DNA of 64,000 nt from a virus, in IMG/VR virus record IMGVR_UViG_3300009008_002419, positions 1 through 64,000 of that record; one strand, written 5' to 3'. Each line of letters begins with the position of its first letter. Position 1 is the stretch's first letter. The notes beneath the pieces are model-generated. The model did no database searches and was not told the DNA's origin. It saw nothing but the letters and a program-made list of their open reading frames with translations. This document shows positions 659 to 27,746 of the stretch, piece by piece. A program made the translations under genes and the position numbers.

Positions 659-1300
659 ATGAGCAAATTTTTTAAAGAGGCTGGAGTTGGCTGGGATATA
701 CAAGCTTATAGTGTATCTCCTGAAAAGTTAGATAATACTCGAGCCGCCTTACAAAAAGCTGAAAAAGCTTATGATAAGAAGCTTAAAGCTACAATTGGAA
801 AAATGCCTTCTCGTACAAAGACTGTGGTAAAGAAAAAATTTTTTGGTTTGATTAAAAATAAAACTAAAAAATTTATGGACTATGACGAATATACTAATAG
901 TCCTAAATATCAAGCCTATCATAAAAAGTGGAAGGCTTATACAAAAAAGAATCCTATGCCTGAGAATGATTGGGAATTTAGGCGCAGACACCGGTTACAC
1001 AGTGATCATAAAAAGTATCCCACAAATTATAAGTTAAATATGAATATTGATGCCGGCTTTAGTAGTAAGTACTCAGGAAAATTAACAGACGAAGTGTATT
1101 CAGACACACCTAAGCGATATAATTTGTCCAAAGCTGAGTTAAGGGAAGCTTTAAAAGAATATAAGGCTAATGCAAAGCACTATAAAAAATCTTACCCTAA
1201 GGATCCTTATATTGATCCAGGAGTAAAGGCTTTTTCTGCAAAAGCTAAAGCTATATTAAAAGACCCTCGCGCTAAAACAATTAGATTTGAATACGAGTAA
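659..1300 (+). CDS. Hypothetical Lys-rich protein, possible virion cargo
   Basis: 213 residues, very rich in Lys and Tyr, with no recognisable domain. A GGAG ribosome binding site lies 11 bases before the ATG. The N-terminus carries Phe4-Phe-Lys-Glu-Ala8, one copy of the hydrophobic-x-Lys-x-Ala motif that recurs in head and cargo proteins here. Its high positive charge suggests nucleic-acid contact or packaging with the genome; that is inference only. Confidence 0.6.
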   Translation: MSKFFKEAGVGWDIQAYSVSPEKLDNTRAALQKAEKAYDKKLKATIGKMPSRTKTVVKKKFFGLIKNKTKKFMDYDEYTNSPKYQAYHKKWKAYTKKNPMPENDWEFRRRHRLHSDHKKYPTNYKLNMNIDAGFSSKYSGKLTDEVYSDTPKRYNLSKAELREALKEYKANAKHYKKSYPKDPYIDPGVKAFSAKAKAILKDPRAKTIRFEYE

Positions 1301-1338
1301 CACATAAATCTCAACAAAGAAAGTGTGTAGGTGTAATA

Positions 1339-1860
1339 ATGATTAAAACACTAGTAAAAGAAATAGAAACTCGGAATAAACTACTACGTACCTTGTTAGA
1401 CCCAGATATTAATGGTGACTTTTATAGTAATATTCTCAAAACTATTCTTGAGGTTTCTCACAGTCAGTTTGGTTTTATAGGATACTCAGCTGAAGATACC
1501 GGCGATTTAGTCTGTCCGACTATGACTCACGATATCTGGGAGAAATGTCAGGTACCTGAGAAGGGCCTGATTTTCCCATTTGAAACATGGGGGCACTCTT
1601 GTGTATCTTCAGCTGAGTGTCTAAAGACCGGAGAAATAATAGTTAAGAATTCTTCTCCTCATAAAGTCCCTGAAGGGCACCTTTCTTTAGATCGCTCAAT
1701 CTCGATCCCGCTCAAGTCAGGATATAATGGTGAGCGTGAAACAATAGGAATAATAATCCTTGCTAATAAAGAAACTGATTATACGGAAGATGATATTAAG
1801 TTTTTAGAAACGTTAGCGGACACTCTAGGTCCGATGATAGATTTTAAGAGGCATGAGTAA
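1339..1860 (+). CDS. GAF-domain protein
   Basis: 173 residues that read as one GAF domain, the small-ligand or light-sensing fold found in bacterial signalling proteins. Supporting features are the N-terminal helix (residues 1-25), the segment around residues 110-130 with the pattern GHLSLDRSISIPL typical of histidine-kinase-linked GAF domains, and the closing IGIIILANK plus ETLA helix. No kinase, cyclase or other output domain is attached. A lone GAF protein among virion-type genes is unusual. The fold call is fairly secure; ligand and role are unknown. Confidence 0.7.
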   Translation: MIKTLVKEIETRNKLLRTLLDPDINGDFYSNILKTILEVSHSQFGFIGYSAEDTGDLVCPTMTHDIWEKCQVPEKGLIFPFETWGHSCVSSAECLKTGEIIVKNSSPHKVPEGHLSLDRSISIPLKSGYNGERETIGIIILANKETDYTEDDIKFLETLADTLGPMIDFKRHE

Positions 1861-1894
1861 TAAAGTAACACATACACACAAAGGAAAGTATTAA

Positions 1895-2237
1895 ATGGAT
1901 AAAGCAGAAAAAGTATTTATAAAGTATGCGGCTGAAACAGGCGCAGTTGTAGGTAATTTATTAGGTGGCCCTCTCAGGGGCGGCAATAGGTGCTGGTAAA
2001 GATCGTCGTAGTCGTACATTTGGTGGCGCATGGTTAGGCGCTTTTCCTGGTGGCGTTTTAGCAAGCCTTGGTGCTTTTAAAGGGAAACTACCTTTACAGC
2101 TTGCAGGTTCTGCAATAGGAGCTCTTGGCGGAACCTTTGGTGCTTATAAAGGTTATCAGTCAGCAGTAAAGCGTAATAAAGAACATAATAAATTACGCAG
2201 TACTAGGAATAAACTTCGAACGGGACCGTTGGAATAG
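1895..2237 (+). CDS. Gly-zipper cargo protein, interrupted by a +1 frameshift
   Basis: An ATG at 1895 after a GGAAAG ribosome site opens a frame reading MDKAEKVFIKYAAETG and then a Gly-rich stretch, but it stops soon after 1980. The same Gly-rich protein continues in the +1 frame to 2237. Removing one C from the CCC run at 1969-1971 joins the two parts into a smooth Gly/Ala-rich protein of about 113 residues, resembling the protein at 5272 in its first 16 residues. The break may be a sequencing error, a mutation or programmed frameshifting. Phe8-Ile-Lys-Tyr-Ala12 matches the putative prohead-processing motif. Confidence 0.6.
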
Positions 2238-2274
2238 AAAAGATAGTAAAGTAAGATAATACTTAAGGTACTTA

Positions 2275-2643
2275 ATGAACAAACAAGCACTATCACCTAA
2301 AACACTTGCTCGTGCAAAAGCGCTTCGCGCTACGAGAATGCAGGCAACACAGGATAAAGCAGAGAGAGTGTGGCAATACAAGCAACACCTTATTCACTCT
2401 TCTAAATTCCGTGCCTTTGTAACTCCATTCTCTACTCGTAGGCGCAGAATCTTTCGGGAAGAGAAAAAGTATAAGGCATTAGAGAAAGATGTGGATAGGC
2501 AGCGGTCTAAGTGGAGGCGTACGAAGAACAGGCTTGAAAAGAATCCGATACCTAAAGCTGAAGTAGTTCCATTCCCAACTCAAAAAAAGCATAAAGCCAT
2601 TATAATGCCTTTATCAAGTCACCCAGCATTTAAGCAGTCATAG
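2275..2643 (+). CDS. Basic protein with KQALSPKT-type domain
   Basis: 122 residues, strongly basic. Residues 3-25 (starting KQALSPKT, then TRMQAT) match segments in the proteins at 2659 and 5919, so the three share a short helical domain. Met1-Asn-Lys-Gln-Ala5 fits the hydrophobic-x-Lys-x-Ala motif. The remainder is Arg/Lys-rich helix. Function unknown; a packaged DNA-associated protein is the likeliest reading. Confidence 0.55.
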   Translation: MNKQALSPKTLARAKALRATRMQATQDKAERVWQYKQHLIHSSKFRAFVTPFSTRRRRIFREEKKYKALEKDVDRQRSKWRRTKNRLEKNPIPKAEVVPFPTQKKHKAIIMPLSSHPAFKQS

Positions 2644-2658
2644 AAAGTAAGTAAGTAA

Positions 2659-3177
2659 GTGGATAAAGCTACAGATAAAGCGCAACACATCTTTGAAAAA
2701 ATAGCCAAGCAATACGTAGGTCCAGGCGGAGGCACAGGCGTTACTCATAAGGGTACAGGTAAAGGCGGCATGCCTGCTGGTTATGATATTATCGATATCA
2801 ACAAGAAAAAGAAAAAGGGCATGATTACAAACTTTTTCGCTAAAACTGCAAAGAAAAAGTGTAAGAGTAAAAGTAAAAAAGTGCTCAAAACTACAACCAA
2901 GCAATTAGTCAAACAAGCACTCTCCCCCAAAACTATGGAACTCGCCCGAAGGGCAAGGTCAACTCGCTTAGACGCCACATGGAAAAAGATGGAGTCCTTT
3001 CGTCGTAAAGCCGATAAAGTAGAAAAGCATAAGTACTCTCTAAACCCTATCGTTAGCATCCGCGCGCGTAATCTTCATAAGTCATACCAGCAAACTGCTG
3101 ATAATATCGGCAAACGTTACCTCGCTGACTCGGACAAACTTTCACGCACGTACAGACGGATGTCCCCTCGTAAATAA
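2659..3177 (+). CDS. Basic cargo-like protein with KQALSPKT-type domain
   Basis: 172 residues beginning at a GTG. The start is chosen because it restores the N-terminal pattern MDKAxxKAQHIFEKIA shared with neighbouring cargo-like proteins (Phe12-Glu-Lys-Ile-Ala16). A second copy (LVKQA) precedes the SPKT domain at about residues 89-120, homologous to the start of the protein at 2275. A Gly-rich linker at about 22-40 joins them. No enzymatic motif is seen. Probably a virion protein cleaved during head maturation. Confidence 0.55.
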   Translation: MDKATDKAQHIFEKIAKQYVGPGGGTGVTHKGTGKGGMPAGYDIIDINKKKKKGMITNFFAKTAKKKCKSKSKKVLKTTTKQLVKQALSPKTMELARRARSTRLDATWKKMESFRRKADKVEKHKYSLNPIVSIRARNLHKSYQQTADNIGKRYLADSDKLSRTYRRMSPRK

Positions 3178-3192
3178 GGTATAAGAATTATG
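3178..3192 (+). promoter_or_regulatory. GGTATAAGAA motif, site 1
   Basis: GGTATAAGAATTATG sits just before the GGAGG ribosome site of the gene at 3204. The same 15 bases recur at 3685 and the first ten recur on the minus strand. No conserved -35 box is visible, so a -10-only phage promoter is suggested. Confidence 0.45.
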
Positions 3193-3203
3193 AGGAGGTC
3201 ACG

Positions 3204-3398
3204 ATGGCACGTAAACACAAAAAGGAAAAGTGTCGCCTTATCGATTCACTCGTCAACCAAAACCCTCGAGAGCCCAAAGCTCCTCAGGAGTATGCTGAAG
3301 ACACAAATCGGCACGGCATCTTGAGGATCACTACGATCAAGCCCAAACGTAAGCCCACATCCAAACAGAGCCCGAAACAGCAAGGGAGTAAAGTATGA
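3204..3398 (+). CDS. Small basic hypothetical protein
   Basis: 64 residues, Lys/Pro-rich, with a strong GAGGAGG ribosome site. It follows the GGTATAAGAA motif at 3178 and its stop overlaps the next start (ATGA at 3395), so the two genes are translationally coupled. No known domain. It could be an early host-modifying peptide or a DNA-binding peptide; nothing in the sequence decides. Confidence 0.5.
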   Translation: MARKHKKEKCRLIDSLVNQNPREPKAPQEYAEDTNRHGILRITTIKPKRKPTSKQSPKQQGSKV

Positions 3399-3577: not shown

Positions 3578-3647
3578 CGCGTATCCACTAGTTCTTTGAC
3601 AACTGAATAACTTCACTACACCCACAGTACACTTTAGGAGGTTTTGT

Positions 3648-3674: not shown

Positions 3675-3684
3675 TCATAATATG

Positions 3685-3699
3685 GGTATAAGAATTATG
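3685..3699 (+). promoter_or_regulatory. GGTATAAGAA motif, site 2
   Basis: An exact repeat of the 15-base motif at 3178, again placed directly before a GGAGG ribosome site and start codon (3711). Confidence 0.45.
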
Positions 3700-5271: not shown

Positions 5272-5658
5272 ATGAATAAAGCACAAGAAGTTTTTACAAA
5301 GTATGCTCTTTCACAAGGAGCTTTAACGGCCGCTGGCGCTGGGGTAATGACTGGGATTGGTTACTTAGGTTTTAGATCTAAACGTAAAGGAGAATCTACA
5401 GGGAAGGGTCAGGCTAAAGCTGTTGGACTTGGTGCCGCCTGGGGTGCAACTGCAGCAGGGATTGGTGGGAAAACCATGACTAAAACTTTAATGAAAGATC
5501 CAAAAACTTTTGAGATAGGGGCTAATTTAGCTTCAAAATTTTCTACACCTCGTGGTAAAGCTCTTGCCATGGCAGGTGGTGCACTAATTGGTGTAACAGG
5601 CGCTCCTATATATCATGGTCTTGGTAGATTATTTGGAAAAAAGAAAAAGGATAAGTAA
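5272..5658 (+). CDS. Gly-zipper cargo-like protein
   Basis: 128 residues. The N-terminus MNKAQEVFTKYA is near-identical in pattern to the proteins at 1895 and 2659 and carries Phe8-Thr-Lys-Tyr-Ala12. It is followed by GxxxG-rich segments (about 15-35 and 55-70) that could form membrane-inserting helices, then a Lys-rich end. Phage Gly-zipper proteins of this type are often injected with DNA; here that is inference. A likely paralogue of the frameshifted protein at 1895. Confidence 0.55.
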   Translation: MNKAQEVFTKYALSQGALTAAGAGVMTGIGYLGFRSKRKGESTGKGQAKAVGLGAAWGATAAGIGGKTMTKTLMKDPKTFEIGANLASKFSTPRGKALAMAGGALIGVTGAPIYHGLGRLFGKKKKDK

Positions 5659-7790: not shown

Positions 7791-9158
7791 ATGGGCAAAT
7801 ACTTCACTAAAACATCTATGTCCAAAAAGCAAGCTCCCGGAATTCCTGACCGCAACAAAATACAGTCAATCCCGAACATTTCGTCTCCGACGATTTGGGA
7901 AGGTGGTATACATCTTCATGAAGCTAAGCGTGCAGGGATTCATTATGATCTTCGGCTAGGGGATCCGTCTACCCACCACTCACATTCATGGGCTCTTAGA
8001 AAACTTCCAGCAGCTGGTGAAAAAGTTCTCGCTATTCATCAGCCTACTCATACACTTGAGTACATGGATTTTAAAGGTACTATTAAAGATGGATACGGCG
8101 CTGGTAAAGTAAAGCTTCACTTCCGAGATAAAATAGAGATTCTAGAGTCATCTGACAGACGTATACTCTTTAATCTCTACAAAGGTAATAAAACAGAAAA
8201 GTATGCCCTAATCAATCGCGGAGATAAGAATTGGATTTTATTCAATTATACTACGACTGATAAAGACAAACTTATTCCATTGACAAAGCCTTCTTATAAA
8301 GAGAAGGATTTTGACAACCTAGATACAGCAAATCCTAATGAGGTGTTTGCACCTAAGATGGATGGGGCTCATAACATCTTCATCCTCCGCCCTAACAAGC
8401 GTGTACAAACTTTCTCGTATCGACCTGCTAAGGGCCGTATTGAGCGAATTGATCATACGTATAAAACTGATTTGTACAAGCACCGTGCTCCCAGGTCATT
8501 AGGTACTACTGTAGTTCGAGGTGAGTTATACCTTCCTGGTAAGACCTCACCCGAAGTTGGCTCAGTCCTTAACTCGAATGTATTCCTGGCTAGAGAAAAG
8601 CAGGAAAAAGTGGGCCCACTTCAAAATGTAATGTTTGATGTAGTAACGTATAAAGGCAAAAATGTAGAAGCCTTGCCGTACCGTGAAAAGATTGAAATTC
8701 TTAAAAAGATTAATAAGGAATTCCCTCAAATGAAAGTTCCTTCATATGCTACGACACCACAAACGAAAAAGAATCTCGTTTCAGCTATAAAAGACAAGCA
8801 ACACACTGATACAGACGAAGGCGTAGTAATTTATAACCTTGATAGCCCACTTCCTATTAAAGCTAAAATTCGTAGAGACTACGATTTATATGTAAAAGGC
8901 TTCTACGAAGGAACTGGCAGGCTTAAAGGTAAGGGTGTTGGGGGCATTATAGGTACTGAATCTCCAACTTCGTCACAAGAAATACGAGTTGGTTCTGGAC
9001 TTACTGATAAACAGCGCCAGGACATGTATAATAATCCTAATAAATATGTTGGTAGACTTATTAAAATTTATGCACAAGAAAAATTAAAGAGTGGTAAATT
9101 CCGTATGCCTGTGTTTAAAGAGTTTAGGGATTATGAACGTTGGGTTAATAAGAAGTAA
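7791..9158 (+). CDS. LigD-like 3'-phosphoesterase / ATP-dependent DNA ligase
   Basis: 455 residues in two domains. Residues about 38-115 match the LigD 3'-phosphoesterase domain: His43, the HYDLRL signature at 51-56, SWALRK, a His at 87 and YGAGKV. This domain trims 3' phosphates or ribonucleotides at breaks in bacterial end joining. Residues about 180-455 form an ATP-dependent ligase: KMDG at 189-192 with the adenylated Lys, VVRGELY, MFDVV, EGVVIY and KAKIRR, then an OB-like end. No Ku or polymerase domain is seen here. Its place among virion genes and the FTKTS near its start suggest it may travel in the capsid, which is inference. Confidence 0.8.
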   Translation: MGKYFTKTSMSKKQAPGIPDRNKIQSIPNISSPTIWEGGIHLHEAKRAGIHYDLRLGDPSTHHSHSWALRKLPAAGEKVLAIHQPTHTLEYMDFKGTIKDGYGAGKVKLHFRDKIEILESSDRRILFNLYKGNKTEKYALINRGDKNWILFNYTTTDKDKLIPLTKPSYKEKDFDNLDTANPNEVFAPKMDGAHNIFILRPNKRVQTFSYRPAKGRIERIDHTYKTDLYKHRAPRSLGTTVVRGELYLPGKTSPEVGSVLNSNVFLAREKQEKVGPLQNVMFDVVTYKGKNVEALPYREKIEILKKINKEFPQMKVPSYATTPQTKKNLVSAIKDKQHTDTDEGVVIYNLDSPLPIKAKIRRDYDLYVKGFYEGTGRLKGKGVGGIIGTESPTSSQEIRVGSGLTDKQRQDMYNNPNKYVGRLIKIYAQEKLKSGKFRMPVFKEFRDYERWVNKK

Positions 9159-11055: not shown

Positions 11056-11481
11056 ATGGCAAAACAGAAATATCACGATAGCAAGCATAAATACTTTAAG
11101 CCATCTGAAGCTGAAAAGACGTGGAGATATGCTATTAAAAAGCACAAGTCTCCGGGTTCTTCAGCTCACTTCGATCTTCGCCTATACAACGATGCCTATA
11201 AAAAAGTGTTTTCTTGGTCATCCAAGAAATTTCTTTTAAACGGGAACAACCCCGTTTTGATTCGTAGAACACCTGATCATCCAAAATCATCATTGGAGTT
11301 TGAGGGAACCTTCTTTTCAAAGAGTTCTCCTAAACTTAATAAAGTTACTAATCTTCAAACAGGTGTGCTGACTTTTGAAGGCGTAGATCCTAAAAAGGGT
11401 ATTATGTTTAGATCTGAAGATTTTTCTTTTGATCTCAAGCCTTACAGAGGAAAAAACTACATATTCATGAAAGTACAATAA
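11056..11481 (+). CDS. Stand-alone LigD-type 3'-phosphoesterase-like protein
   Basis: 141 residues carrying the phosphoesterase pattern seen in the ligase at 7791: His38-Phe-Asp-Leu-Arg-Leu43, FSWSSKK, a His near residue 76 followed by LEFEGTF. No ligase or polymerase domain is attached. LigD phosphoesterase domains need two His and an Asp/Arg pair around the metal; these appear present. It may repair 3' ends of the phage genome alone or with the ligase. The fold is likely; activity is unproven. Confidence 0.65.
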   Translation: MAKQKYHDSKHKYFKPSEAEKTWRYAIKKHKSPGSSAHFDLRLYNDAYKKVFSWSSKKFLLNGNNPVLIRRTPDHPKSSLEFEGTFFSKSSPKLNKVTNLQTGVLTFEGVDPKKGIMFRSEDFSFDLKPYRGKNYIFMKVQ

Positions 11482-15165: not shown

Positions 15166-16215
15166 ATGATGATAACAGTTTACGACGTCAATAATTTCGG
15201 AAAACAAGCCTCCGAAGATTATGTGCGAAACGATACACCACTTAATGACACCATCGTTAAGTTAGCTTCTGCCAATGGGTTAACTAAAAATCAAGTTGAT
15301 CGTGTGGTAGAAGCTGCCAATAATGAGACGTATTTATCTTTGCTAAAAACAGCAGAAGATAAGTATGTTGAGTTCCCATTAGCAAACACAAAAGAAGTTT
15401 TTTCTGAAATAGAAAAAGAGGCCAAGGTGTTAAATACCAATTTATCTGATTATGATGCGCCTCCAGTTCCTACTCAGGAAGAACTCCCTTCATTAACAGA
15501 CTCAGCGATTTTTGGCGACTTGACAAAAGCCGCCTCACACGAAGAGTCTCATGGAGACAAAATCAGAGGTGCTGAAGCAAGAAAAATGAGTGCTGAGCTC
15601 AAAGGTACTCACATCTTCTTAAAGAACGCAGCTGATGAAGCTTCTGTCCAGTTTGCTAAAACATATGATACCCTCACACATCTAATTAAGCAAGCAGTGT
15701 TGAATGGTACGACTTTTAATGATATAGTTCAAATCAATGAACAGTCAATGCCAATGTTAAATACTGCTATTACTCCAGAATTTAAAGAATCCTTAGCATT
15801 GGATATGCCTCGCTTTGACTTTGATAAAGAAGCTCAACACACTCATCCTAATCCTGGCAGCTCAGTTTACCAAGCTGGGGTAGACCTGGAAAAGGTCGCA
15901 GAACAATACATGAGAATCCGTTGTGCTATGGATCATTACGAAGACGAGCATACTACACTCCAAGACTCTACTAATGAGAAGCTCGTTCCTTTAGTTAAAA
16001 AAGCTAAGAATATGGAAGAAGAAATTGCTCGAAAAGCAGTTAAGCAATATCGTAGAGAAGTTTGGGGTAAGAGATTTAAAAAACTCCCCGCCGCAGCACT
16101 AGCAGCCGCTGGAGCTGGAGTTGTTTATCACCTAGGTAAAAATAAAGGTATCACAGAACAAAATCAGGTTCTTAAAGAACAGTTCTTGGACCCTAAACTT
16201 TATAAGAGGTATTAA
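15166..16215 (+). CDS. Internal head or scaffold-like protein with ten processing motifs
   Basis: 349 residues, first gene of the capsid operon. It carries ten hydrophobic-x-Lys-x-Ala sites at residues 11, 30, 59, 82, 119, 151, 173, 219, 241 and 276, roughly evenly spaced. In the T4 head the scaffold core is cut at many sites by the prohead protease, and this pattern suggests the same fate. The C-terminus (about 308-330) has an Ala/Gly hydrophobic segment. It lies where a portal gene might be expected but is too short and has no portal features. Start: first of two tandem ATGs next to a -10 box. Confidence 0.55.
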   Translation: MMITVYDVNNFGKQASEDYVRNDTPLNDTIVKLASANGLTKNQVDRVVEAANNETYLSLLKTAEDKYVEFPLANTKEVFSEIEKEAKVLNTNLSDYDAPPVPTQEELPSLTDSAIFGDLTKAASHEESHGDKIRGAEARKMSAELKGTHIFLKNAADEASVQFAKTYDTLTHLIKQAVLNGTTFNDIVQINEQSMPMLNTAITPEFKESLALDMPRFDFDKEAQHTHPNPGSSVYQAGVDLEKVAEQYMRIRCAMDHYEDEHTTLQDSTNEKLVPLVKKAKNMEEEIARKAVKQYRREVWGKRFKKLPAAALAAAGAGVVYHLGKNKGITEQNQVLKEQFLDPKLYKRY

Positions 16216-16269
16216 ATGGCCAATATAGATCCTAGAAAAGTAATGGCCAATATAGATCCTAGAAAAGTT
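16216..16269 (+). repeat. 27-base tandem duplication over a start codon
   Basis: Two adjacent 27-base copies starting ATGGCCAATATAGATCC differ only at the last base (A/T). Confidence 0.9.
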
Positions 16270-16680
16270 TTAACAACCTTGGCGTTTGGTGCCGCTTTAG
16301 TTGGAGCTAATGCTTTGTTTGAAGGGGCACAAAAGCTCAAAACTAAAATGAATAAAGAGCCGTCTTTTAAGCGTATGATGGACATGCACCCCCAGCTTCA
16401 TAAAATGGATCCAAATGAAGTATTAAAGTATTGGGACAACCTTTATCACTTCGCTCCGAAAATGGCTCAAGAGCCTCTAGCAGCGGGCGCTTATATTCTT
16501 CAAGTAAGTCGTATGGATGACTTTGGTGGACCAACCACTGACACTATTAAATCCATTACTGAAATTCAAGATAAGGTTGGCCCAGGTAAGAAAGAGAATA
16601 GACTTACTGAATCTAACTTATTTATGAATGCTATTGCTGGTATGGCTGACCTTCCAACACACGGAAAACCAACTCCCTAA
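16216..16680 (+). CDS. Head-operon protein with duplicated N-terminus
   Basis: 154 residues. The first nine residues, MANIDPRKV, occur twice because of a 27-base tandem duplication at 16216-16269, so two start codons are available, 27 bases apart. A hydrophobic segment follows at about 19-33. The TAATGG junction at 16679 couples it to the protease gene. Function unknown; part of the capsid operon. Confidence 0.5.
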   Translation: MANIDPRKVMANIDPRKVLTTLAFGAALVGANALFEGAQKLKTKMNKEPSFKRMMDMHPQLHKMDPNEVLKYWDNLYHFAPKMAQEPLAAGAYILQVSRMDDFGGPTTDTIKSITEIQDKVGPGKKENRLTESNLFMNAIAGMADLPTHGKPTP

Positions 16681-18437
16681 TGGACAAAATAATAGAGTAT
16701 CAATACGGAGACCATAACTCTGAAGTTGTCTCTTTAATTTCATCTCAGAATCTGCACAAAAAAGCAGAGTACTCAGATGAGTTAAAAGAGTATGTTACTT
16801 TCTTGAAAAAGAAAGTGGATAAAACGTATGCTCTAGTTAATGCTCTTTCAGCTGGTGAACACTATGGTTGTAATAGAAATGGTGATTATTTCCCTGAAGA
16901 TGTACTTCAACGATATCACAAAACGTTCGAAGCACTGGGACATGTTTATAAACACCATGTAAATAAGGACCCTAAGAGGTCTTTTGGCAAGGTTATATTT
17001 TCACACTATAACCCCAGTATGCATAGAGTAGAGCTTATAATTGAGCTTGATAATACTCGTGCTTCAGATATTATCGAACGTCTTGAGAAACAAATAGAAG
17101 ATGTTAAAGTTTCTATGGCGTGTCGAGTTCCTTACGATGTGTGCTCTATTTGTGGTCACAAAGCACGCAAGCTTTCAGAGTATTGTGACCATTTAAAAGA
17201 AAAAATGGGCCGTATGCTAAGCGATGGTCGTAGAGTGTATGCGATTAATACAATGCCCAAGTTTTTTGACATAAGTGTAGTAACAATCCCTGCAGACAGG
17301 ACCGCAGGATTTATTGCTAAAGTGGCGTCTCATACTTCAACAGTTGAAGTTGATGAGTACACCCCAAGTGCTAAGATTGCAGAAGATCTATTTAAAGAGA
17401 GTGATTTAGAGTCAACTGCTGATATTAAGAAGAAAGTGGATGCTGAGCTTAAAGCTCTGTCTCCTGATCCTCATAAACTTCTTCTTAAAACTCATGGAAA
17501 CTTAACTAAAGATAAACTAGTCAAGTTATCTGAGTACCCACTTAATGAAGTTCTTTCGACAATGATCGGCTTACGAATGATGCCGAAGAAAGATGACTTC
17601 ATGAAGTTAGCGCTTTACTCTTTAGGACACCAAGATTTTGCAGAAGATGTAGCAAACTCGGATTATACTTTTGGTGTTGAAGAAGCAATAGAACCGCAAG
17701 ACGTATCCTGTGATAACTTTAATGTTAAAATAGCAGAGTTGTTAAAAGAAGATGTTCCCCAGTTAACTCTGACAAAGCCTTTCATTATTGCAAGAGCATT
17801 TGAAAAAGTGGCGGAAACATCGGAACCTTGTCAAAAATATGGGTCTGTACTTGAAAAGTACGGATACGATAACTCTGACGAAACTCGTTCTGAGTGGCCT
17901 AAACAAAACGAAAAAAAGCCAAGCAAACTACAAGAGATTTTCTTAGGAACTGAGGAGCCCCCCAATCTCAGTCCTAGGCAAAATCCTTTAGTACCAATGG
18001 CAGTTCTTGGCGGTTTGTACACAGGTTATGCCAAGCTTTTTAAAAAAGCTTTTGATACAGGTGGATTTACTGGGTTACTAGGGAAATATCCCTGGATTGC
18101 CCCCCTGTTAATTGGCGCTGGAACAGTTGGATCATTGAAATTACAAGATCTCTATTTCAACAAAACTGCGAGTGCAGGAAAACTTTTACCCGCGATGATA
18201 TTTGCTGGATTACCAACGAGTTATTTATATGCTGGAATCCAAGAAGCAAAAGTTAGAAAAGGAAAACCTATTTCTAAACTACAAAACTTTGTAAGGAAGC
18301 ACCCATTCCTTTCAACATTAATCGCAACAGGAGCAACTGGCGCAGGTATAGGTTTAATTAAACGAGCTAGTGTAATTTCACAAATGGACGAGGGATCTAT
18401 TAATTCAATTTACGAAGACTTAATCAAGGAGAGTTAA
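16680..18437 (+). CDS. Prohead maturation protease with zinc knuckle and membrane-like tail
   Basis: 585 residues. Residues about 60-150 match the herpesvirus-assemblin-type serine protease fold of phage prohead proteases: a NGDYFP entry, the catalytic His in YKHHVNKDP (92-93), GKVIFSH, a long helix, and VSMACRV with Ser145. A Cys/His cluster (Cys155, Cys158, Cys169, His171) looks like a zinc knuckle. The C-terminal 150 residues have Gly-rich hydrophobic segments, unusual for the family. It holds several hydrophobic-x-Lys-x-Ala sites itself (for example residues 25-29), as expected of a self-processing enzyme. It is the probable cutter of the neighbouring head proteins. Confidence 0.75.
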   Translation: MDKIIEYQYGDHNSEVVSLISSQNLHKKAEYSDELKEYVTFLKKKVDKTYALVNALSAGEHYGCNRNGDYFPEDVLQRYHKTFEALGHVYKHHVNKDPKRSFGKVIFSHYNPSMHRVELIIELDNTRASDIIERLEKQIEDVKVSMACRVPYDVCSICGHKARKLSEYCDHLKEKMGRMLSDGRRVYAINTMPKFFDISVVTIPADRTAGFIAKVASHTSTVEVDEYTPSAKIAEDLFKESDLESTADIKKKVDAELKALSPDPHKLLLKTHGNLTKDKLVKLSEYPLNEVLSTMIGLRMMPKKDDFMKLALYSLGHQDFAEDVANSDYTFGVEEAIEPQDVSCDNFNVKIAELLKEDVPQLTLTKPFIIARAFEKVAETSEPCQKYGSVLEKYGYDNSDETRSEWPKQNEKKPSKLQEIFLGTEEPPNLSPRQNPLVPMAVLGGLYTGYAKLFKKAFDTGGFTGLLGKYPWIAPLLIGAGTVGSLKLQDLYFNKTASAGKLLPAMIFAGLPTSYLYAGIQEAKVRKGKPISKLQNFVRKHPFLSTLIATGATGAGIGLIKRASVISQMDEGSINSIYEDLIKES

Positions 18438-18441
18438 ACTA

Positions 18442-19104
18442 ATGGCAAGTCAAGGTATGAAACTTGATGATATTCTTGCTCGATTAGAAGCTACTGAGGA
18501 AGAGAAAACTGCAGAAGAAAAACTTGTAGATGGTCTTTCTGACGACGAAACTACTGACACAGACACCGAGGAAAGTTCCGAATCCGACGATGATGCGAAA
18601 ACAGAAGAAGACACCGATTCTGAAAAAAGCGCAGAGGCAGAGGATGAAGTTAAAGAAAAAGGAACTAAAACAGAAGATGACGAAGCTCTTTTAAAAGTTG
18701 CTGCTGACATTGAATTCCAAGGACAGCTTTTAGCCCGTAGTTTTGTAGATGAGTTGCAGAAGATTGCTGTTGGCGATGGTCCTTATACAGGTAACAGTGC
18801 CGATGCAAATAAATCTGTCAACCAGTTACCCACAGGAGATGTTCCTGAAGCAGGTAAAGTGGATGCAGTTATTGCAAAGTTACAGCAACTAACTGGTGCA
18901 ACCGAGGCAAGTCAGCCATCATTTGAGATCGCTGGAGATTCACAGCCAGCTCCCAAAAAGGTTACCGACGAAGCTCAGGGTACCGTTGCTGCAGACGCAG
19001 CTCTAGCAGTTTCTCATGCAGCCGCCCTGCCCGTATCGGCTGGCGGACAAGAAAAAACCGCTTCTGATGAGATAGTAAGTAAAATTTATGGACACTTTTT
19101 TTAA
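18442..19104 (+). CDS. Acidic scaffold-like protein A
   Basis: 220 residues, with a Glu/Asp/Ser/Thr-rich stretch at about 15-80, typical of phage scaffold or prohead core proteins. Shared with the next protein are a segment GQLLARSFVDEL (about 93-104) and the C-terminus EKTASDEIVSKIYGHFF. Two clear processing motifs (LLKVA and LQKIA) flank the shared segment. The conserved C-terminus may be the capsid-binding hook. The scaffold call is inference from charge, position and motifs. Confidence 0.55.
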   Translation: MASQGMKLDDILARLEATEEEKTAEEKLVDGLSDDETTDTDTEESSESDDDAKTEEDTDSEKSAEAEDEVKEKGTKTEDDEALLKVAADIEFQGQLLARSFVDELQKIAVGDGPYTGNSADANKSVNQLPTGDVPEAGKVDAVIAKLQQLTGATEASQPSFEIAGDSQPAPKKVTDEAQGTVAADAALAVSHAAALPVSAGGQEKTASDEIVSKIYGHFF

Positions 19105-19122
19105 TGAGGAGAGAGAATAACA

Positions 19123-19704
19123 ATGGCTAGCACATATTTAGAAAGATACGAAGAGTTGAAAAATATGGAAAAGGCTGCTACTGAATCTGAAGCTCTTGAA
19201 ACTCAGAGAAAAGAAGTCATCGAAAAGTACGCCTCACTGGCTACAGACTTACTGACAGAAGAGCATGGAGAAGGTAACTTCTCTAATGAAGACATCGAAA
19301 AATTAGCAGTTTATATGATTGATCACGATATTGAAGCTGAAGAGAATATTGAAAAAGAAGCAGAAAACACTGACAGTGAAGAGGATCCTAAAGAAGTAAT
19401 TGAAAAGTATGCCGCTTTTGCTGATAATCTTTTAGCTGAAGAGTATGGTGAAGATTATGAAGAAGAGGACGTAGTTAAGTTAGCAACGCTGTTAATTGAA
19501 GACGACCTCCAGGCGGAAGAATTAGAAAAGTATGCTGAGTTTGAAGTGGCTGGACAAGTCATGGCAGCAAGTTTCTTAGACGCTCTTTCTGACACAGCGG
19601 AAGACGCTGAAGAAGAGAAGGTAGCGGAAGAAGAAGAAAAAACCGCCGCTGAAAATATTGTAGACACTATTTATGGTAATTTTTTCCCAGAAGATTCTGA
19701 GTAA
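19123..19704 (+). CDS. Acidic scaffold-like protein B with internal repeat
   Basis: 193 residues, strongly acidic. It contains two repeats starting EVIEKYA (about residues 31 and 91), and at least seven hydrophobic-x-Lys-x-Ala motifs, most as IEKYA-like heptads. The segment GQVMAASFLDAL and the C-terminus EKTAAENIVDTIYGNFF match protein A, so the two are paralogues. GAGGAGAG ribosome site. A prohead core protein cut into small peptides is the best guess. Confidence 0.55.
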   Translation: MASTYLERYEELKNMEKAATESEALETQRKEVIEKYASLATDLLTEEHGEGNFSNEDIEKLAVYMIDHDIEAEENIEKEAENTDSEEDPKEVIEKYAAFADNLLAEEYGEDYEEEDVVKLATLLIEDDLQAEELEKYAEFEVAGQVMAASFLDALSDTAEDAEEEKVAEEEEKTAAENIVDTIYGNFFPEDSE

Positions 19705-19729
19705 AAAACCTTAAAAAATTGAGATCGAA

Positions 19730-20053
19730 ATGGAAAAAAGTTTAAAACAAGAAGCTGCTGAAGCCATTCGAATCTTACGTGAAGACTTAAGCGAGCTTCA
19801 GGAAAAGATTGCTTCGATGTCTGAAGCTCGTGAACTTCTTCTTTCTTTGTACAAAGAAGGCAGTCTAACTGCGGAGGATGTATTAGAGCAGTTAGAAACA
19901 TATGAGGCTAAAGATAAAAGTGAATTAGAAGTTATTAAGAAAGCGATAGAGCTTAATGGCACGTCGAAAGAATTTGTATTCGGCCATTTAAGCGAGCGTT
20001 TTCAAGATGACGGTTCTTTAGATCCCATAACAAGAATGTTACTAGAAGATTAA
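19730..20053 (+). CDS. Coiled-coil head-operon protein
   Basis: 107 residues, helical and acidic, with a heptad helix at about 5-35. It lies between the scaffold-like genes and the decoration gene. Possibly a scaffold accessory. No family recognised. Confidence 0.45.
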   Translation: MEKSLKQEAAEAIRILREDLSELQEKIASMSEARELLLSLYKEGSLTAEDVLEQLETYEAKDKSELEVIKKAIELNGTSKEFVFGHLSERFQDDGSLDPITRMLLED

Positions 20054-20077
20054 CCTTACGCAAGGACGCAAAATTTT

Positions 20078-20503
20078 ATGCTTAAACTATTAAGTAGCTT
20101 AAATATCTTGCAAAGAGTTGAAGTCACTTACGATTCAACTCAATTAGAAACTGATGATCTTCGTCAGGGTTCTTGGATTACTACAGATGGTGCAGTTCCT
20201 TCCGATGGTGAAGGCGCATACCCTATCTGGACTGAGAGCAACCGTGATGCAACTTACGGTTGGACCCCTGATTATACTACAACTGGTAAACTTACTGTAT
20301 TAGTGGGCACCCACCGTGCTATCACTGATCAGTATACAGGAACTATTACAGCTGGCATGGCATTAAAAGTGGACACCACTGGTAATCTAGCTGAAGCAAC
20401 TGTAGCGGACGATCACATTGTTGCAATGTGTGAATCTGTAGAAGCCAGTTATACATATCTTGGCACAACTTATTCCGGCGTAATTACTTACGTCACCACA
20501 TAA
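20078..20503 (+). CDS. Putative capsid decoration protein
   Basis: 141 residues, mostly strand, rich in Thr and Gly, directly before the capsid gene. The KLTVLVGTHRAITDQYTGTI core and length resemble small beta-rich head-stabilising proteins of HK97-type phages. Start preceded by CAAGGACG. The role is inferred from fold type and location. Confidence 0.5.
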   Translation: MLKLLSSLNILQRVEVTYDSTQLETDDLRQGSWITTDGAVPSDGEGAYPIWTESNRDATYGWTPDYTTTGKLTVLVGTHRAITDQYTGTITAGMALKVDTTGNLAEATVADDHIVAMCESVEASYTYLGTTYSGVITYVTT

Positions 20504-20514
20504 GGAGATAACTA

Positions 20515-21441
20515 ATGGATATTTCTGCGAGCACAATTAATGAGCTCTTTGTAGAAAAGTTAAACTCTCCTGATGGCATGGAAAAAGTCGCCGCCGAGGG
20601 TTCAGCTTTCATCAGACAGAAACTACGTGAAGTTTCTTTTGCAAGAAAAATTATACAGCCTGAATACGTTACTAAAGCCGACTGCCAGCGCTCAGTCAAT
20701 CACGACGGCTTAGTAAAAATCGTGGATATCGAACCTGATTCTCAAGCCATGACTGTCAACTTCCGTGGGCAGCCTGACACTAACTACGTAATGGGCGAAA
20801 GATACGAGATTCCTTTCTTCGCTATTTCTTCTGAAGATTTCCAGAAGACTGAAGAAGAACTCCTAGCTTACGAGATGCCTCTTACGGAAGTTATCGAGAG
20901 AAACTCTGTAAAAGATATTCAGAAGATTGAAGACACATCCTTCCTGACGCAGGTTGATGCAGCTATCACTTCTAGCTCATTAACTGCTACCGCCAACTGG
21001 GGCGCTGCCACAGGTATCATCCCTAAAGCCGGTTTCTTCGATCTGTTTAACCTCTTAGATAGTAATGAGCTCAAAGCTGAGACTATGCTTATGAGCACTC
21101 CTACTTATAACAGACTCTTCCTGTATGACGCGACTACAGTCGGTGATCAGGTGGGTAGCGAAATTGCCGTTAATGGCTACACTTATCAGCAGTTCCTGGG
21201 ACGTAAGCTTATTGTTTCTAATAAGACCGATCTCTTAACCGCTAACAGTGGCGCTACTGAGTACGTTTACATCTTTGCGGGACAAGAGTTCTTAGGAAAC
21301 TTCTTCATCCTTAACGATACCAAATTCTGGATCGATAAGCAGAAGAATATTATTTCCTGGGCAGCTTATGAAACGCTGGGAATGGGTATTGGTAATATCA
21401 ATGCCTGCGGTAGACTTACACTCACAGTTGATTCTGAATAA
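20515..21441 (+). CDS. Major capsid protein, HK97 fold
   Basis: 308 residues. An N-terminal arm is followed by the HK97-like pattern: an E-loop region (about 70-95), a spine helix (about 115-140) and P- and A-domain strands. Met22-Glu-Lys-Val-Ala26 is the only good processing motif, placed where an N-terminal delta-type peptide would be removed to leave a chain of about 282 residues. Strong AAGGAG ribosome site, and a terminator follows. Length, position after decoration and scaffold genes, and codon choice support the call. Confidence 0.75.
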   Translation: MDISASTINELFVEKLNSPDGMEKVAAEGSAFIRQKLREVSFARKIIQPEYVTKADCQRSVNHDGLVKIVDIEPDSQAMTVNFRGQPDTNYVMGERYEIPFFAISSEDFQKTEEELLAYEMPLTEVIERNSVKDIQKIEDTSFLTQVDAAITSSSLTATANWGAATGIIPKAGFFDLFNLLDSNELKAETMLMSTPTYNRLFLYDATTVGDQVGSEIAVNGYTYQQFLGRKLIVSNKTDLLTANSGATEYVYIFAGQEFLGNFFILNDTKFWIDKQKNIISWAAYETLGMGIGNINACGRLTLTVDSE

Positions 21442-23183: not shown

Positions 23184-25336
23184 TGCGAATAATTCCAAAC
23201 CAATATTATAATCAAGATGAAGTAGATGAGCTAATTGCTGATCATACTAATACAGCAGATAAGATTACTTATTCTGGTGTAGATGTGGTTGAAACTGTTG
23301 AAGACACTTTAGATGATTATTATAATTTTAGACAAATTGTTAACGGTACTTTTAAAGAGTCTTTTGATTGTGTAGTAACAGTTAGTGGATCTTCTATTTA
23401 TGCTGAACTTGAACAATCAGGTGGAGGAGATTTAACATGTCAGTTCTCTGATGGTTATACTACACTTGATTGTACTCCTGCGCAAACAATCGAATTAACT
23501 GCCGGGACAACAACAGTTCCTCAGGATAATTATGTTTATGTATTACAAAGTACAAAAGCATTAACTGTTTCGACATCTGCGTGGCCTGATACAGAACATA
23601 TTAAAGCTGCATTTTTATGCGTTGCTGACGCTTCTTTTACAAATACATATGGTGCATTAGTAAATCAAAATTGGAACGATCATTTATATGGCACAGATAA
23701 TATGGGGCACATTACTCATATGGCAGAACGGTCTCGAAGGCTAGGAGCTGCTTGGTATAGTGGTATTACCGGTGCGGGTACTGATGATTACACTACAAGT
23801 TCTGCGGGAACTGTACACGTAAAAGTAAATTCAGGTATTCTTTATCAAATGCACAAACATACTTATACTGCAAAAGATACAAGTGTAAGTGATGTGGTTC
23901 ACATCATTAATCATGATGTTACTCCGTACACTACTGTTAGTAATTTGTATGATGTGGTAAATGATGCCTCAGGGGGAACTCTTACTAATAAATATTTTAA
24001 TATTGTTCTATGGGGCGTTGCAAACAAAACCGGGGAATACTCTCCACTTATAGTTAATTTACCAACGGGCAGTTATAATGTTCAATCTGATGCTGAAAAT
24101 GATGTTGATAGTTATGATGTTTTAGCAGTACCTACGACATATTTACAAGAATCGTCTACTGCTTTTTTAATTTGTCGAATGACTTTTAGAAAAACTGGCG
24201 GAACTTGGGATTATAAATCTACAGTAGATCTTCGTGGAACAAAACCAAGCACTGTTACAGGTGGGACTCTTGGTACTATAACTGATTTTGCAGATAATCA
24301 GTTCACTGTATTTGATGGTAATGATAACACTCGTATTATTACTCTTTCGGCTGATAATATTACAACAGGAAATACCCGTGTAATTACAATGGCAGATGAT
24401 AATGTCGATCTTGCTAATGTTCATGCTGAATCTCACACAATAGTGAGCCACTCTGATACTTCGGCTACAGGTACTGAATTAAATACACTGACTGATGGTT
24501 CTAATGCTGACAGTCTTCATATTCATGAGGCCTATCTGGAGTTAGATGGAACCGACCTAATGGCCGGGAATTTGGATATGAACTCCAACAACATTGATAA
24601 TGTGGGAATCCTCGAAACGAATGAGATTACTCGCGTCGGTGGAAACCTTATCATTGATGTAAACAGTGCCTCGACTCTTCGTTGGGTGCAAATTCGTAAT
24701 GATGGATTTAGCGGCACGGCCTCTTTGAGCGTTGAGACTGATCTTACCGTTGGCGGCGACATTTCCCTTGGCGGAACTGTAGACGGCGTGAATATTGCAT
24801 CTCACGCCTCGAATGCTGACGCGCATCATAATGAATCCCACACGGTTGTGAGTCACTCTGACACGACAGCTACGGGGGCAAATTTAAATACCTTGGTAGG
24901 GTCTGGAATAACTGGACTTCACAGTCACAAAGAGCGTCATGTGATTGACTTTGGTCAGCGTAATACGGGAGGGTCAGATTATTGGGATACTTACACCCTG
25001 GTTTCAGGTTACGCGGGATATCGCGCCACGACAGTAAACCGGGCGGGGTCGGTTGTTGAATTCTCGTTTACCTGTGATCTGAATTCCGTTACGAACCCTG
25101 GAAACTTTGAATGTGAAATCTACGCAGGAGCTCTTGGTGCCTCAGCCTCGATGATTAAGGAAGAGGTCGTTGCGATCTCTTCAACGGGTTATATTCAAGT
25201 TAGCGAGCTGTACACTCCCGGAACTTACACTTTCAATGCTGATGACATGATCGCTCTTTATGGTCGCTTGGCAGGCGGACTAACAGGCACTTGGCGCTAT
25301 GGAGTCGCTCGTATTATCATCGAATATGATACTTAG
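23183..25336 (+). CDS. Tail fibre-like protein with distinct C-terminal region
   Basis: 717 residues. It has strand-rich, Thr/Asp-rich sequence and two copies of a His-rich repeat (ESHTIVSHSDT and ESHTVVSHSDT, about 135 residues apart), common in trimeric fibres. After about 24540 the G+C content rises sharply (53% in one 60-base line against 33% upstream by hand count), suggesting the C-terminal 265 residues, the probable receptor-binding part, came from elsewhere. No chaperone or peptidase domain recognised. Confidence 0.6.
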   Translation: MRIIPNQYYNQDEVDELIADHTNTADKITYSGVDVVETVEDTLDDYYNFRQIVNGTFKESFDCVVTVSGSSIYAELEQSGGGDLTCQFSDGYTTLDCTPAQTIELTAGTTTVPQDNYVYVLQSTKALTVSTSAWPDTEHIKAAFLCVADASFTNTYGALVNQNWNDHLYGTDNMGHITHMAERSRRLGAAWYSGITGAGTDDYTTSSAGTVHVKVNSGILYQMHKHTYTAKDTSVSDVVHIINHDVTPYTTVSNLYDVVNDASGGTLTNKYFNIVLWGVANKTGEYSPLIVNLPTGSYNVQSDAENDVDSYDVLAVPTTYLQESSTAFLICRMTFRKTGGTWDYKSTVDLRGTKPSTVTGGTLGTITDFADNQFTVFDGNDNTRIITLSADNITTGNTRVITMADDNVDLANVHAESHTIVSHSDTSATGTELNTLTDGSNADSLHIHEAYLELDGTDLMAGNLDMNSNNIDNVGILETNEITRVGGNLIIDVNSASTLRWVQIRNDGFSGTASLSVETDLTVGGDISLGGTVDGVNIASHASNADAHHNESHTVVSHSDTTATGANLNTLVGSGITGLHSHKERHVIDFGQRNTGGSDYWDTYTLVSGYAGYRATTVNRAGSVVEFSFTCDLNSVTNPGNFECEIYAGALGASASMIKEEVVAISSTGYIQVSELYTPGTYTFNADDMIALYGRLAGGLTGTWRYGVARIIIEYDT

Positions 25337-25344
25337 GAGTAATT

Positions 25345-25686
25345 ATGGATAGAATAAAAATAACAGCGTACTTCCACGCTAAGAAGCTCGACCCAAAAAC
25401 TGACTCTGTTGATGCAAACCCATTTCCAATTACGGACTCTATCCTTAATGAGTTTGGGACTGGTACCCTTAATCTCGTGGACGCCTACTACATACACGAG
25501 GCCCAAGGGGCTTCTGGTGTCGGCGGTGAAGCGTGGATGGGTAGAGCTAAGGTGTTTACTGCTTATTGCTCTGATCAGGCAAAAGCGATAAGAGTTAAAG
25601 ATAGGATTATGGCGCTTGCTGATCCTGGAGTGTCTATTGGATTCGAAATGGTAACGGTACCAGTATTTGTATTCACAGCTAAGTGA
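25345..25686 (+). CDS. Hypothetical protein beside the fibre
   Basis: 113 residues with the same higher G+C as the fibre C-terminus, so probably transferred with it. It may be a fibre chaperone or accessory. GGAG ribosome site. No family recognised. Confidence 0.45.
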   Translation: MDRIKITAYFHAKKLDPKTDSVDANPFPITDSILNEFGTGTLNLVDAYYIHEAQGASGVGGEAWMGRAKVFTAYCSDQAKAIRVKDRIMALADPGVSIGFEMVTVPVFVFTAK

Positions 25687-25698
25687 TTTAATTAAAAC

Positions 25699-25727
25699 TT
25701 GACAAAATCTGTAACTTAAAGTATATT
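25699..25727 (+). promoter_or_regulatory. Consensus promoter for a leaderless mRNA
   Basis: TTGACA (25699-25704), exactly 17 bases, TATATT (25722-25727). The ATG at 25734 lies six bases after the -10 box. Confidence 0.75.
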
Positions 25728-25733
25728 ACTAAC

Positions 25734-25901
25734 ATGAGACTTATACCCTTTCCTCCCGAAGAAGATTTGAATAGAAGAACGGAAGAACCTACCGAAGACC
25801 AAATAGTTCGGGAGGTTTTGGATAATTATAGAGATAAAGATTCTCTTCATACTTTTTTAAATAAGGATATATCTCTGACTAAACGCATAAAGGGTATCTA
25901 A
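25734..25901 (+). CDS. 55-residue hypothetical protein, leaderless
   Basis: ATG at 25734 to TAA at 25899, next to a consensus promoter and with no ribosome site. The protein starts with a Pro-rich segment (IPFPPEE) and is otherwise charged helix. It is the first gene of the tail sheath/tube unit and ends one base before the next ATG. Confidence 0.5.
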   Translation: MRLIPFPPEEDLNRRTEEPTEDQIVREVLDNYRDKDSLHTFLNKDISLTKRIKGI

Positions 25902-25902
25902 T

Positions 25903-26892
25903 ATGCCACGAACTTATGATTACTGGTATGGCGGAGACTCTGCTCCTGATGGAGACTGGCTAGAAACTTCAGTTTATAAACAGACGAATAATGCTGTTTT
26001 AGACATTAAAAAGATTTTTATTAGTTTTGCTCAAAAGTATTTTGAAAATCATATTCGATTTACTTGGAACTCTGATTTACGAACAACTAAATTAATTGTT
26101 GCTGATAAGAATGCTATTGAATTAGAGGTTTTAGATACAAAGCCAGGAGTTATACTATCGAGGGGTGCTCATCGTTGGGCAATGGTCGCTGGTCAAAAAG
26201 GTATTGGTGAAACTAAAAAAGATTTTATGTTTCCTGATGGTATCGAGACACTTGAAGGCGCTCTAACGGATACTGATTTATCTCGACAAGAATACAAAGA
26301 TTTAATTGAAGGTACAGTAACCTTTAATTGTATCTCCCGTAATGGCTTACAAGCTGAAGAAGTTGCGAATGAATTGTTCATGGCTTTAACAGTCTTTAAA
26401 GCTGAAATTAAAAAGCACGGAATCCATATGATTCATGGAATTACTATGGGTGAAGAAGGAATTGTTCGTTCAAATTCTGGTATTGAGTTAGAAGTAGTAC
26501 CGGTTACTTTACAATATTCTGCTCAACGAACTGTTACATCATCAATGAAAACTTATGACATGGTTGTAACTTATGATGATGAAACAATTTATGAAGGAAT
26601 TCATTATAGAGTTTCTCCTGCTGCAAGTGGTTTAGATTATGACACACTTGTATTTAGAACGATTCCACCAGATGGAACTGAAATTATTGCGACCTATGCA
26701 AACTTAATTACACTCGAACAAGTTGTGGATGATGTGTCATCGCAGGTTGATGAAGACGGCGAAAATTATGAGTTTAATTTAAGTACTCGTGCATACGGTT
26801 ATTATAAAATTGTTCGTGATATTTGGGTAACAACAGATATTTTAAATAGTGGGATTGAAGAAGAAACAGTAGTGAGTGGTATATGGCCTTAG
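25903..26892 (+). CDS. Putative tail completion protein
   Basis: 329 residues, mixed strand and helix, with two likely domains (about 1-210 and 215-329). It lies upstream of sheath and tube, where myoviruses encode tail terminator and completion proteins. No signature motif. Confidence 0.45.
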   Translation: MPRTYDYWYGGDSAPDGDWLETSVYKQTNNAVLDIKKIFISFAQKYFENHIRFTWNSDLRTTKLIVADKNAIELEVLDTKPGVILSRGAHRWAMVAGQKGIGETKKDFMFPDGIETLEGALTDTDLSRQEYKDLIEGTVTFNCISRNGLQAEEVANELFMALTVFKAEIKKHGIHMIHGITMGEEGIVRSNSGIELEVVPVTLQYSAQRTVTSSMKTYDMVVTYDDETIYEGIHYRVSPAASGLDYDTLVFRTIPPDGTEIIATYANLITLEQVVDDVSSQVDEDGENYEFNLSTRAYGYYKIVRDIWVTTDILNSGIEEETVVSGIWP

Positions 26893-27746
26893 AGAAACAA
26901 GCTTATTCTGCAATTTTAGCTCGTTTAGCGCCTTTACTTAAGCATCTTGGTAAATTACGCAATGTTGGTAAAGCCACGGATGTTGGTGAAAGTGCGTATA
27001 AGGGATTTAAAGGTGCTAAAGGATTGGGCAGGGGCGGTACTGGTTTTGTAGCTTCGTATCGATCTGCTTTATCACAAGCACGCAAGTTTGGTTATAAGGG
27101 TGTAGCTAAGTGGGGACGCAATAGTTATAATGTTGGCCCTCGCGCAAGTTCGCGTGTGAATACTTTTGCTAAGGCACAACGTGCAGGACGATTAGCAGAG
27201 AGATCTAAAGGTAGTATAACGGGTGCTCCAATTCGTTTCTTACAAAAGGGTATTGGTGAAGTTGCTTATGCAACCCGTAATCCTTTCAGATTCGCTAAAG
27301 ATTTTGGCCGCCACATAGACAAAAAAACTATTAGCATTTCTAAGGCTACTGGTAAAAAACCACAGCTTTATGAACGTGGTGGACAGACATTTTTTAAGCC
27401 TAAGTTAGGCAAAGAGAGAAAAGTATTAGGTTTTACATCAAAGGGTGATGCGATTGTAAAACGTAATGTAGGTGGAAAAACTGTTGCTCTCGGTTTTTCT
27501 GGACCTGGTTTTGGAGCTCAAGAATTACTTTTTAAGAAAGACCAACATGGTAACCCACTTACCATGAACCAACGTCGAAACAAAGCTCTAAAAGAAACAG
27601 TACTGTGGTCAGCTGCTCCTAAATTTACTGGAACAGCGTTAATTGGCAAAATAGTTGTAGACAGTGGAAAATTTTTAACGAGCATGAACAAACAAGCAAG
27701 TCTAGACGATCTAGGCTTTAAAAAACAACTAACCAAATTAAAATAA
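26883..27746 (+). CDS. Basic cargo-like protein
   Basis: 287 residues, strongly basic and Gly-rich. Leu3-Glu-Lys-Gln-Ala7 lies at the N-terminus and MNKQA near the C-terminus (about 271-275), both matching the processing motif; the C-terminal 17 residues would be released by a cut there. It starts 10 bases inside the previous gene. Likely an internal virion protein. Confidence 0.5.
   Translation: MALEKQAYSAILARLAPLLKHLGKLRNVGKATDVGESAYKGFKGAKGLGRGGTGFVASYRSALSQARKFGYKGVAKWGRNSYNVGPRASSRVNTFAKAQRAGRLAERSKGSITGAPIRFLQKGIGEVAYATRNPFRFAKDFGRHIDKKTISISKATGKKPQLYERGGQTFFKPKLGKERKVLGFTSKGDAIVKRNVGGKTVALGFSGPGFGAQELLFKKDQHGNPLTMNQRRNKALKETVLWSAAPKFTGTALIGKIVVDSGKFLTSMNKQASLDDLGFKKQLTKLK

Follow-up and report, generated by a model that had tools for sequence, protein, structure and literature searches.

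The closest described systems are those of phage T4 and the phiKZ-like phages, whose studied prohead proteases cut after Glu. T4 gp21 follows the experimentally known rule L-x-E or I-x-E (PMC9026906), and the T4 internal proteins IPI-III and Alt, otherwise different from one another, begin with a common short leader that terminates in a cut site (PMC9026906, PMC5694885). The DNA described here, a stretch of 64 kb (the window) out of the 93.8-kb virus record IMGVR_UViG_3300009008_002419, encodes a head gene block in which the motif [LIVMF]-x-K-x-A is strongly concentrated, and several basic proteins with the same motif at their N-termini. The block very probably encodes a gp21/herpes-type prohead protease of new specificity (P3 Lys, P1 Ala), accompanied by a T4-like capsid-targeting leader of new sequence; motif enrichment, specificity, conservation, the occurrence of the leader on unrelated bodies and the protease family, all read at the sequence level, argue for this. 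The lineage is a large family of tailed phages, mostly uncultured.

Expected motif counts were obtained from composition-preserving shuffles of the same proteins; genes are named by their first nucleotide. Order of the head block: terminase 13511, core 15166, small protein 16216, protease 16680, scaffold-like 18442/19123/19730, gene 20078, capsid 20515. Head genes (15166-21441) contained 28 sites against 3.9 expected (Poisson P about 2e-15); tail block, 2 against 2.4; minus-strand genes, placed as replication genes in an earlier note on this DNA, 23 against 15.4; region upstream of the terminase gene, 16 against 10.5. That note had proposed such a scan with shuffled controls: the excess lies in the head genes, and the motif is not equally frequent in replication proteins or in those of the tail. 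The individual sites it had listed were recovered, namely ten in the 349-residue protein at 15166 (residues 11, 30, 59, 82, 119, 151, 173, 219, 241 and 276), seven at 19123 (at least seven listed; 0.34 expected), sites in both scaffold-like proteins (two at 18442, one at 19730) and MEKVA at residues 22-26 of the capsid protein. Its observation is real and was understated; seven sites in the protease itself (residues 25, 212, 307, 374, 453, 493 and 559; 1.18 expected) had been overlooked.

Searching viral contigs with the capsid protein retrieved 47 related loci. Close relatives with a name were limited to Vibrio phages D69, D148 and D181 and Salmonella phage Arash, all of them cultured. Near-identical capsids were removed and orthologs were counted in 31 relatives: core, scaffold and protease orthologs were enriched 5-12x (core, 143 sites against 13.8 in 18 orthologs; protease, 125 against 24.7; scaffolds of the 18442, 19123 and 19730 types, 67 against 8.9, 82 against 6.9 and 58 against 5.4), and the sheath, tube and neck-like proteins of these relatives had essentially zero sites. 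Arash and D69 showed the same head block and the same motif excess. Among 46 loci found via the protease, many of them far more distant, K-x-A mostly headed the P3-P1 pairs, and the full motif was about 2-8 times as frequent as expected. Mycobacteriophage Sebata, which encodes a distant homolog of the protease, showed neither a strong motif excess (3 against 1.4) nor a capsid site. Shared-site columns were conserved at 0.79-0.94, against an average of 0.44-0.59 for these fast-changing proteins: the core site at K32 was retained in 16 of 16, protease K27 and A29 were invariant in 12 aligned relatives, and the capsid-site Lys and Ala in 30 relatives (mycobacteriophage outlier excluded), with variable P5 (e.g., REKLA; aligned sites LVKEA in Arash and LTKEA in D69).

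The specificity was read from an unbiased scan of 102 core proteins that covered every residue pair with a spacing of 1-8. K-x-A ranked first (598 against 200); around it Leu/Phe/Met/Ile at P5, Glu at P4 and Glu and Ser at P1' were favoured, and P2 avoided Gly, Pro, Asp and His, with Gly and Pro nearly absent. In the h-x-X-x-Y matrix (h, hydrophobic) K/A gave 412 against 52 (7.9x), and substitutes gave R/A 14 against 18 (0.8x), K/S 56 against 40 (1.4x), K/G 1.7x and E/A 1.2x. The requirement for K and A is strict; the hydrophobic P5 is preferred but dispensable, as capsids with REKLA illustrate. Glu at P1 found no support (h-x-K-x-E just 0.6x, K-x-A the top pair), which separates the lineage from the Glu-cutting gp21 subgroup. 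T4 served as the positive control: in its core, protease and propeptide sequences, L-x-E and I-x-E came out as the top two P3-P1 pairs. A literature search confined to an open-access library found no published KxA prohead site. The earlier proposal that the protease at 16680 cuts after KxA thus gains support from the blind scan, the fixed conserved sites, the K/A restriction and the T4 control, which together make cleavage at these sites likely.

The same motif could instead serve as a docking or helix-packing element for co-assembly of scaffold, capsid N-terminus, protease and cargo, the protease, if active, cutting elsewhere. Co-assembly of these proteins is expected anyway, and most leaders (see below) look amphipathic-helical and resemble scaffold segments such as EVIEKYA; however, a packing motif should accept Arg for Lys or Ser/Gly for Ala, which is not so here, the Ser/Glu preference at P1' and the exclusion of Gly/Pro at P2 look like protease subsites, and the same scan, applied to T4, recovers an established cut site. 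Docking in place of cleavage is therefore considered unlikely; the leader may well serve both.

The full-length model of the protease was poor (predicted local distance difference test score, pLDDT, 54), and residues 28-245 were therefore modelled from 44 sequences (pLDDT 88.6; predicted template modelling score, pTM, 0.80). A BFVD search with this domain model yielded 192 matches (E<=0.001), and each of the first 50 had a probability of 1.00; many of the matched proteins are annotated as prohead/COG3740 head maturation proteases, and phage G gp19 was one of the best. Solved structures matched weakly: T4 gp21 (5jbl), probability 0.97 with the full-length and 0.66 with the domain model; herpes proteases, weak matches, though consistent with the prohead-protease fold. 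The top PDB ranks of the domain model were poor superpositions on lipid-transport MCE domains (root-mean-square deviation about 20 A), so that the fold is settled by BFVD and would not have been by PDB alone. The PDB sequence search gave no relative of the protease. By these models the 16680 product is assigned the prohead-protease fold of the gp21/herpes type, and its gene lies between those of TerL (13511) and capsid (20515), genes that are close together in relatives as well. H93 and S145 (in VSM[G/A]C) were invariant in 44 aligned sequences and are the putative catalytic residues. The protease is predicted to be a substrate of its own cut rule. Intein-like insertions were seen at or next to VSM(G/A)C in proteases of relatives (L005:4735-7626, L022:5500-8238, L048:5039-7852, L009 near 6087).

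From its sites, the core protein at 15166 is predicted to be chopped into short fragments. About half of the orthologs of the 16216 gene carry at least one site, often close to the N-terminus. The scaffold-like proteins at 18442 and 19123 have a common C-terminal tail (EKTA...IV..IYG.FF), perhaps a capsid-binding end that remains after the last KxA cut.

The earlier note had also placed the motif within the first 16 residues of six cargo-like proteins, and this was confirmed: 659, FFKEA (residues 4-8); 1895, FIKYA (8-12); 2275, MNKQA (1-5); 2659, FEKIA (12-16); 5272, FTKYA (8-12); 26883, LEKQA (3-7). The leaders at 1895, 2659 and 5272 are convincing; those at 659, 2275 and 26883 are short and individually uncertain, although counterparts of the 26883 protein have KxA inside the first 21 residues in the three relatives checked. 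The frame at 1895 breaks after 34 codons and resumes in another frame (1965-2237); the change near 1960-1990 could reflect a genuine frameshift or an indel introduced by sequencing or assembly. Five or six leaders in the window are only suggestive, a signal too weak by itself, and the leader idea was therefore tested in relatives.

For this survey nine genomes or long contigs, the window included, were used. Sites starting in residues 1-17 numbered 106 against 40.3 expected, a count that also takes in scaffold and core proteins with an early first site. Thirty proteins in eight of the nine genomes start with an M[KR]YFEKxA leader (two contigs) or an MDKAxxxFxKxA leader (window and five other genomes); G009 has neither. 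The bodies behind the leaders fall into 21 unrelated groups, and only 7 leader copies are internal. The leader ends in K-x-A in 29 of 30 MDKA-type cases and in all M[KR]YFEKxA cases, the search pattern having mostly required K-x-A. When 2.9 million viral contigs were scanned with a DNA pattern, the MDKA leader matched 35 stretches, many of which belong to known members of the lineage; the variant with P3 Lys changed to Glu matched 3. Leader bodies are basic (median isoelectric point, pI, 10.1, 97% above 9; other open reading frames (ORFs), median 6.5, 30% above 9), and the scaffolds are acidic (pI about 4). The genes for leader-bearing proteins are mostly found no more than about 12 kb from the terminase gene, on the same strand. 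The cargo includes SNF2-family helicases and DUF5662 proteins; Arash gp217 is a homolog of the leader-bearing helicases (E 1e-60 to 1e-69); the homology starts downstream of the leader, and in G002 a longer N-terminal stretch precedes it. An internal leader stands between two stretches of one protein in G001, G002 and G011, and close to the C-terminus of a DUF5662-like protein in G003 and G006, as if cargo were made as polyproteins. Recurrence on unrelated basic, DNA-binding-like proteins supports the earlier suggestion that MxKAxxxFxKYA-like leaders direct proteins into the prohead, and such packaging is probable on this pattern.

Targeting elsewhere (membrane, phage nucleus-like body), or origin of the leader as a relic of gene duplication, would agree with the Gly-zipper, membrane-like nature of several bodies and with the frequent clustering of leader genes. 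The bodies are, however, unrelated and almost uniformly basic, the genes keep mostly to the terminase neighbourhood and strand, the leader ends in KxA as capsid and scaffold sites do, and a helicase homolog is present in Arash virions; we regard this explanation as quite improbable. Chance occurrence in K- and A-rich proteins, to which the Lys-rich cargo bodies and the modest count ahead of the terminase gene in the window alone would lend themselves, was rejected as having negligible probability, since counts were set against same-protein shuffles, permuted control motifs were at or below expectation, and the scaffolds are acidic yet site-rich.

In the virion proteomics of Arash, proteins detected by mass spectrometry (MS) contained 75 sites against 39.5, mostly in the head cluster and gp242, and those without MS evidence 20 against 23, i.e., no excess. 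Arash gp242 (L057:38466-39335) is a virion protein remote from the head block with 8 KxA sites (1.0 expected), probably another core protein; its apparent D69 counterpart lies at L052:32529-33380. Gp217 is a virion protein (38 unique peptides, 1148 spectra; PMC10585845).

Several points weigh against the reading. N-terminal motifs separate the virion proteins of Arash only weakly (well-detected, 6 against 2.8; undetected, 5 against 4.6), so that Arash may use other targeting; gp217 lacks an MDKA-type leader, and its homology therefore supports packaging of the helicases, not the role of the leader. The core/scaffold homologs gp220 and gp223 were reported in purified Arash particles at 96-100% coverage (PMC10585845), which, if taken literally, implies uncleaved or retained material. 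The capsid protein gp27 of phage G has no KxA site. The Arash coverage values seem too high, several rows giving 100% on only 2 unique peptides, and the preparation contains many enzymes; reading cleavage from peptide coverage was dropped, as the values were insufficiently credible. The Arash paper discusses neither cleavage nor a protease (PMC10585845).

With a protease of K-x-A specificity and a targeting leader, assembly would proceed as follows. Acidic scaffold and core would assemble together with the capsid protein; leaders of the MDKAxxxFxKxA form (window and most relatives) or the M[KR]YFEKxA form (one branch), resembling scaffold segments such as EVIEKYA, would bind basic cargo into the acidic core. 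The activated protease would cut after Ala of (hydrophobic preferred)-x-Lys-x-Ala, with Ser or Glu favoured next; the capsid protein would lose its first 26 residues, core and scaffold would be chopped to short pieces, freeing room for DNA, and the protease would cut itself. Fragments would leave or remain as small peptides, and DNA would then enter. The leader would be trimmed by the same protease, and the cargo would stay in the head and be ejected with the DNA. That one KxA code serves shell maturation, scaffold destruction and cargo loading across a broad lineage, the leader carrying SNF2 helicases and basic proteins, leader-plus-site units joining two cargo modules in a single chain and some packaged proteins thus arising from polyproteins split inside the prohead, is somewhat more likely than not. 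If correct, the rule would allow head-packaged, otherwise unannotated proteins to be spotted by sequence in a large, mostly uncultured phage group; it would offer candidate new leaders, e.g., MDKALHVFNKYA, for loading proteins into phage heads; and the cut site of a head protease would be readable from protein sequence alone, an approach validated on T4.

Table 1. Positions of the head, protease and cargo-like features in the window.
Feature	Coordinates	Strand	Evidence or remark
Basic cargo-like protein, N-terminus MSKFFKEA	659..1300	+	
Basic Gly-zipper-like cargo protein, leader MDKAEKVFIKYA	1895..2237	+	Frameshifted after codon 34 in this assembly
Basic cargo-like protein, N-terminus MNKQA	2275..2643	+	
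Basic cargo-like protein, leader MDKATDKAQHIFEKIA (coding 2659-2706)	2659..3177	+	
Basic Gly-rich cargo-like protein, leader MNKAQEVFTKYA (coding 5272-5307)	5272..5658	+	
Head core protein, 349 residues, 10 KxA sites (0.81 expected)	15166..16215	+	Motif counts, orthologs
Small gene between core and protease genes	16216..16680	+	No site in window copy
Prohead (head maturation) protease, 585 residues	16680..18437	+	Weak match to PHROG head maturation protease (E 2e-7); structure matches
Modelled putative catalytic domain, residues 28-245, CxxC...CxxH insert	16761..17414	+	44-sequence alignment, model, BFVD
Acidic scaffold-like protein, pI 4.1, C-terminus EKTASDEIVSKIYGHFF	18442..19104	+	2 strict sites and relaxed EKTA/EKSA sites
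Acidic scaffold-like protein, pI 4.1, 7 sites, C-terminus EKTAAENIVDTIYGNFF resembling that of 18442	19123..19704	+	Motif counts
Third acidic scaffold-like protein, 1 site	19730..20053	+	Motif counts, orthologs
Major capsid protein, HK97-type, relative of phage G gp27	20515..21441	+	PHROG major head protein; PDB 6wkk, E 7e-15
Predicted capsid propeptide, residues 1-26, ends MEKVA	20515..20592	+	K24, A26 invariant in 13 aligned relatives
Basic protein adjoining tail sheath gene, N-terminus MALEKQA	26883..27746	+	

Further observations: a GAF-domain protein (PF13185, E 1e-15) without leader is encoded amid the cargo genes (1339-1860); a LigD-type 3'-phosphoesterase fused to an ATP-dependent ligase (7791-9158) and a second, likely phosphoesterase-only gene (11056-11481) lie close to the cargo and terminase genes. 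The large terminase gene is broken into several ORFs in two relatives, L092 (G003 70531-72069) and L114 (G006 190117-192603), which suggests introns, inteins or homing insertions. The capsid gene of one relative is on a 3.9-kb contig (L160, PWLF01000282.1) binned in a Bacteroidales metagenome-assembled genome, a single contig and a weak host hint.

Compared with T4, the locus agrees in the protease gene standing among head genes ahead of the capsid gene, in a scaffold with many cut sites, in an N-terminal propeptide of the capsid protein, and in a short leader ending in a cut site on otherwise different proteins, as in IPI-III and Alt. It differs in that T4 cuts after Glu in (L/I)xE, whereas P3 Lys and P1 Ala are predicted here, a specificity new to this class; in the leader sequence; and in a cargo with SNF2 helicases and second internal leaders. 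None of the family searches linked the proteins here by sequence to the core, scaffold or internal proteins of T4. The large phages phiKZ, 201phi2-1 and SPN3US likewise have prohead proteases with many internal substrates and a short P3-x-P1 rule, and SPN3US also favours Ser at P1'; their cleavage, in contrast, is after Glu (S/A-x-E, A-x-E) (PMC10052503). In SPN3US several propeptides are longer than 100 residues; the leaders here have 8-21.

Herpesvirus assemblin has a related fold by a weak structure match. It cuts after Ala, before Ser, and needs a hydrophobic P3, unlike the Lys here; it is not known to have a portable cargo leader. The nearest named structure relative of the protease is phage G gp19. 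The literature searched held no documentation of cleavage in phage G; its portal gp14 and gp20 have one KxA site each close to the N-terminus, and gp19 has 7 KxA sites against 0.7 expected, so that the rule may predate this lineage.

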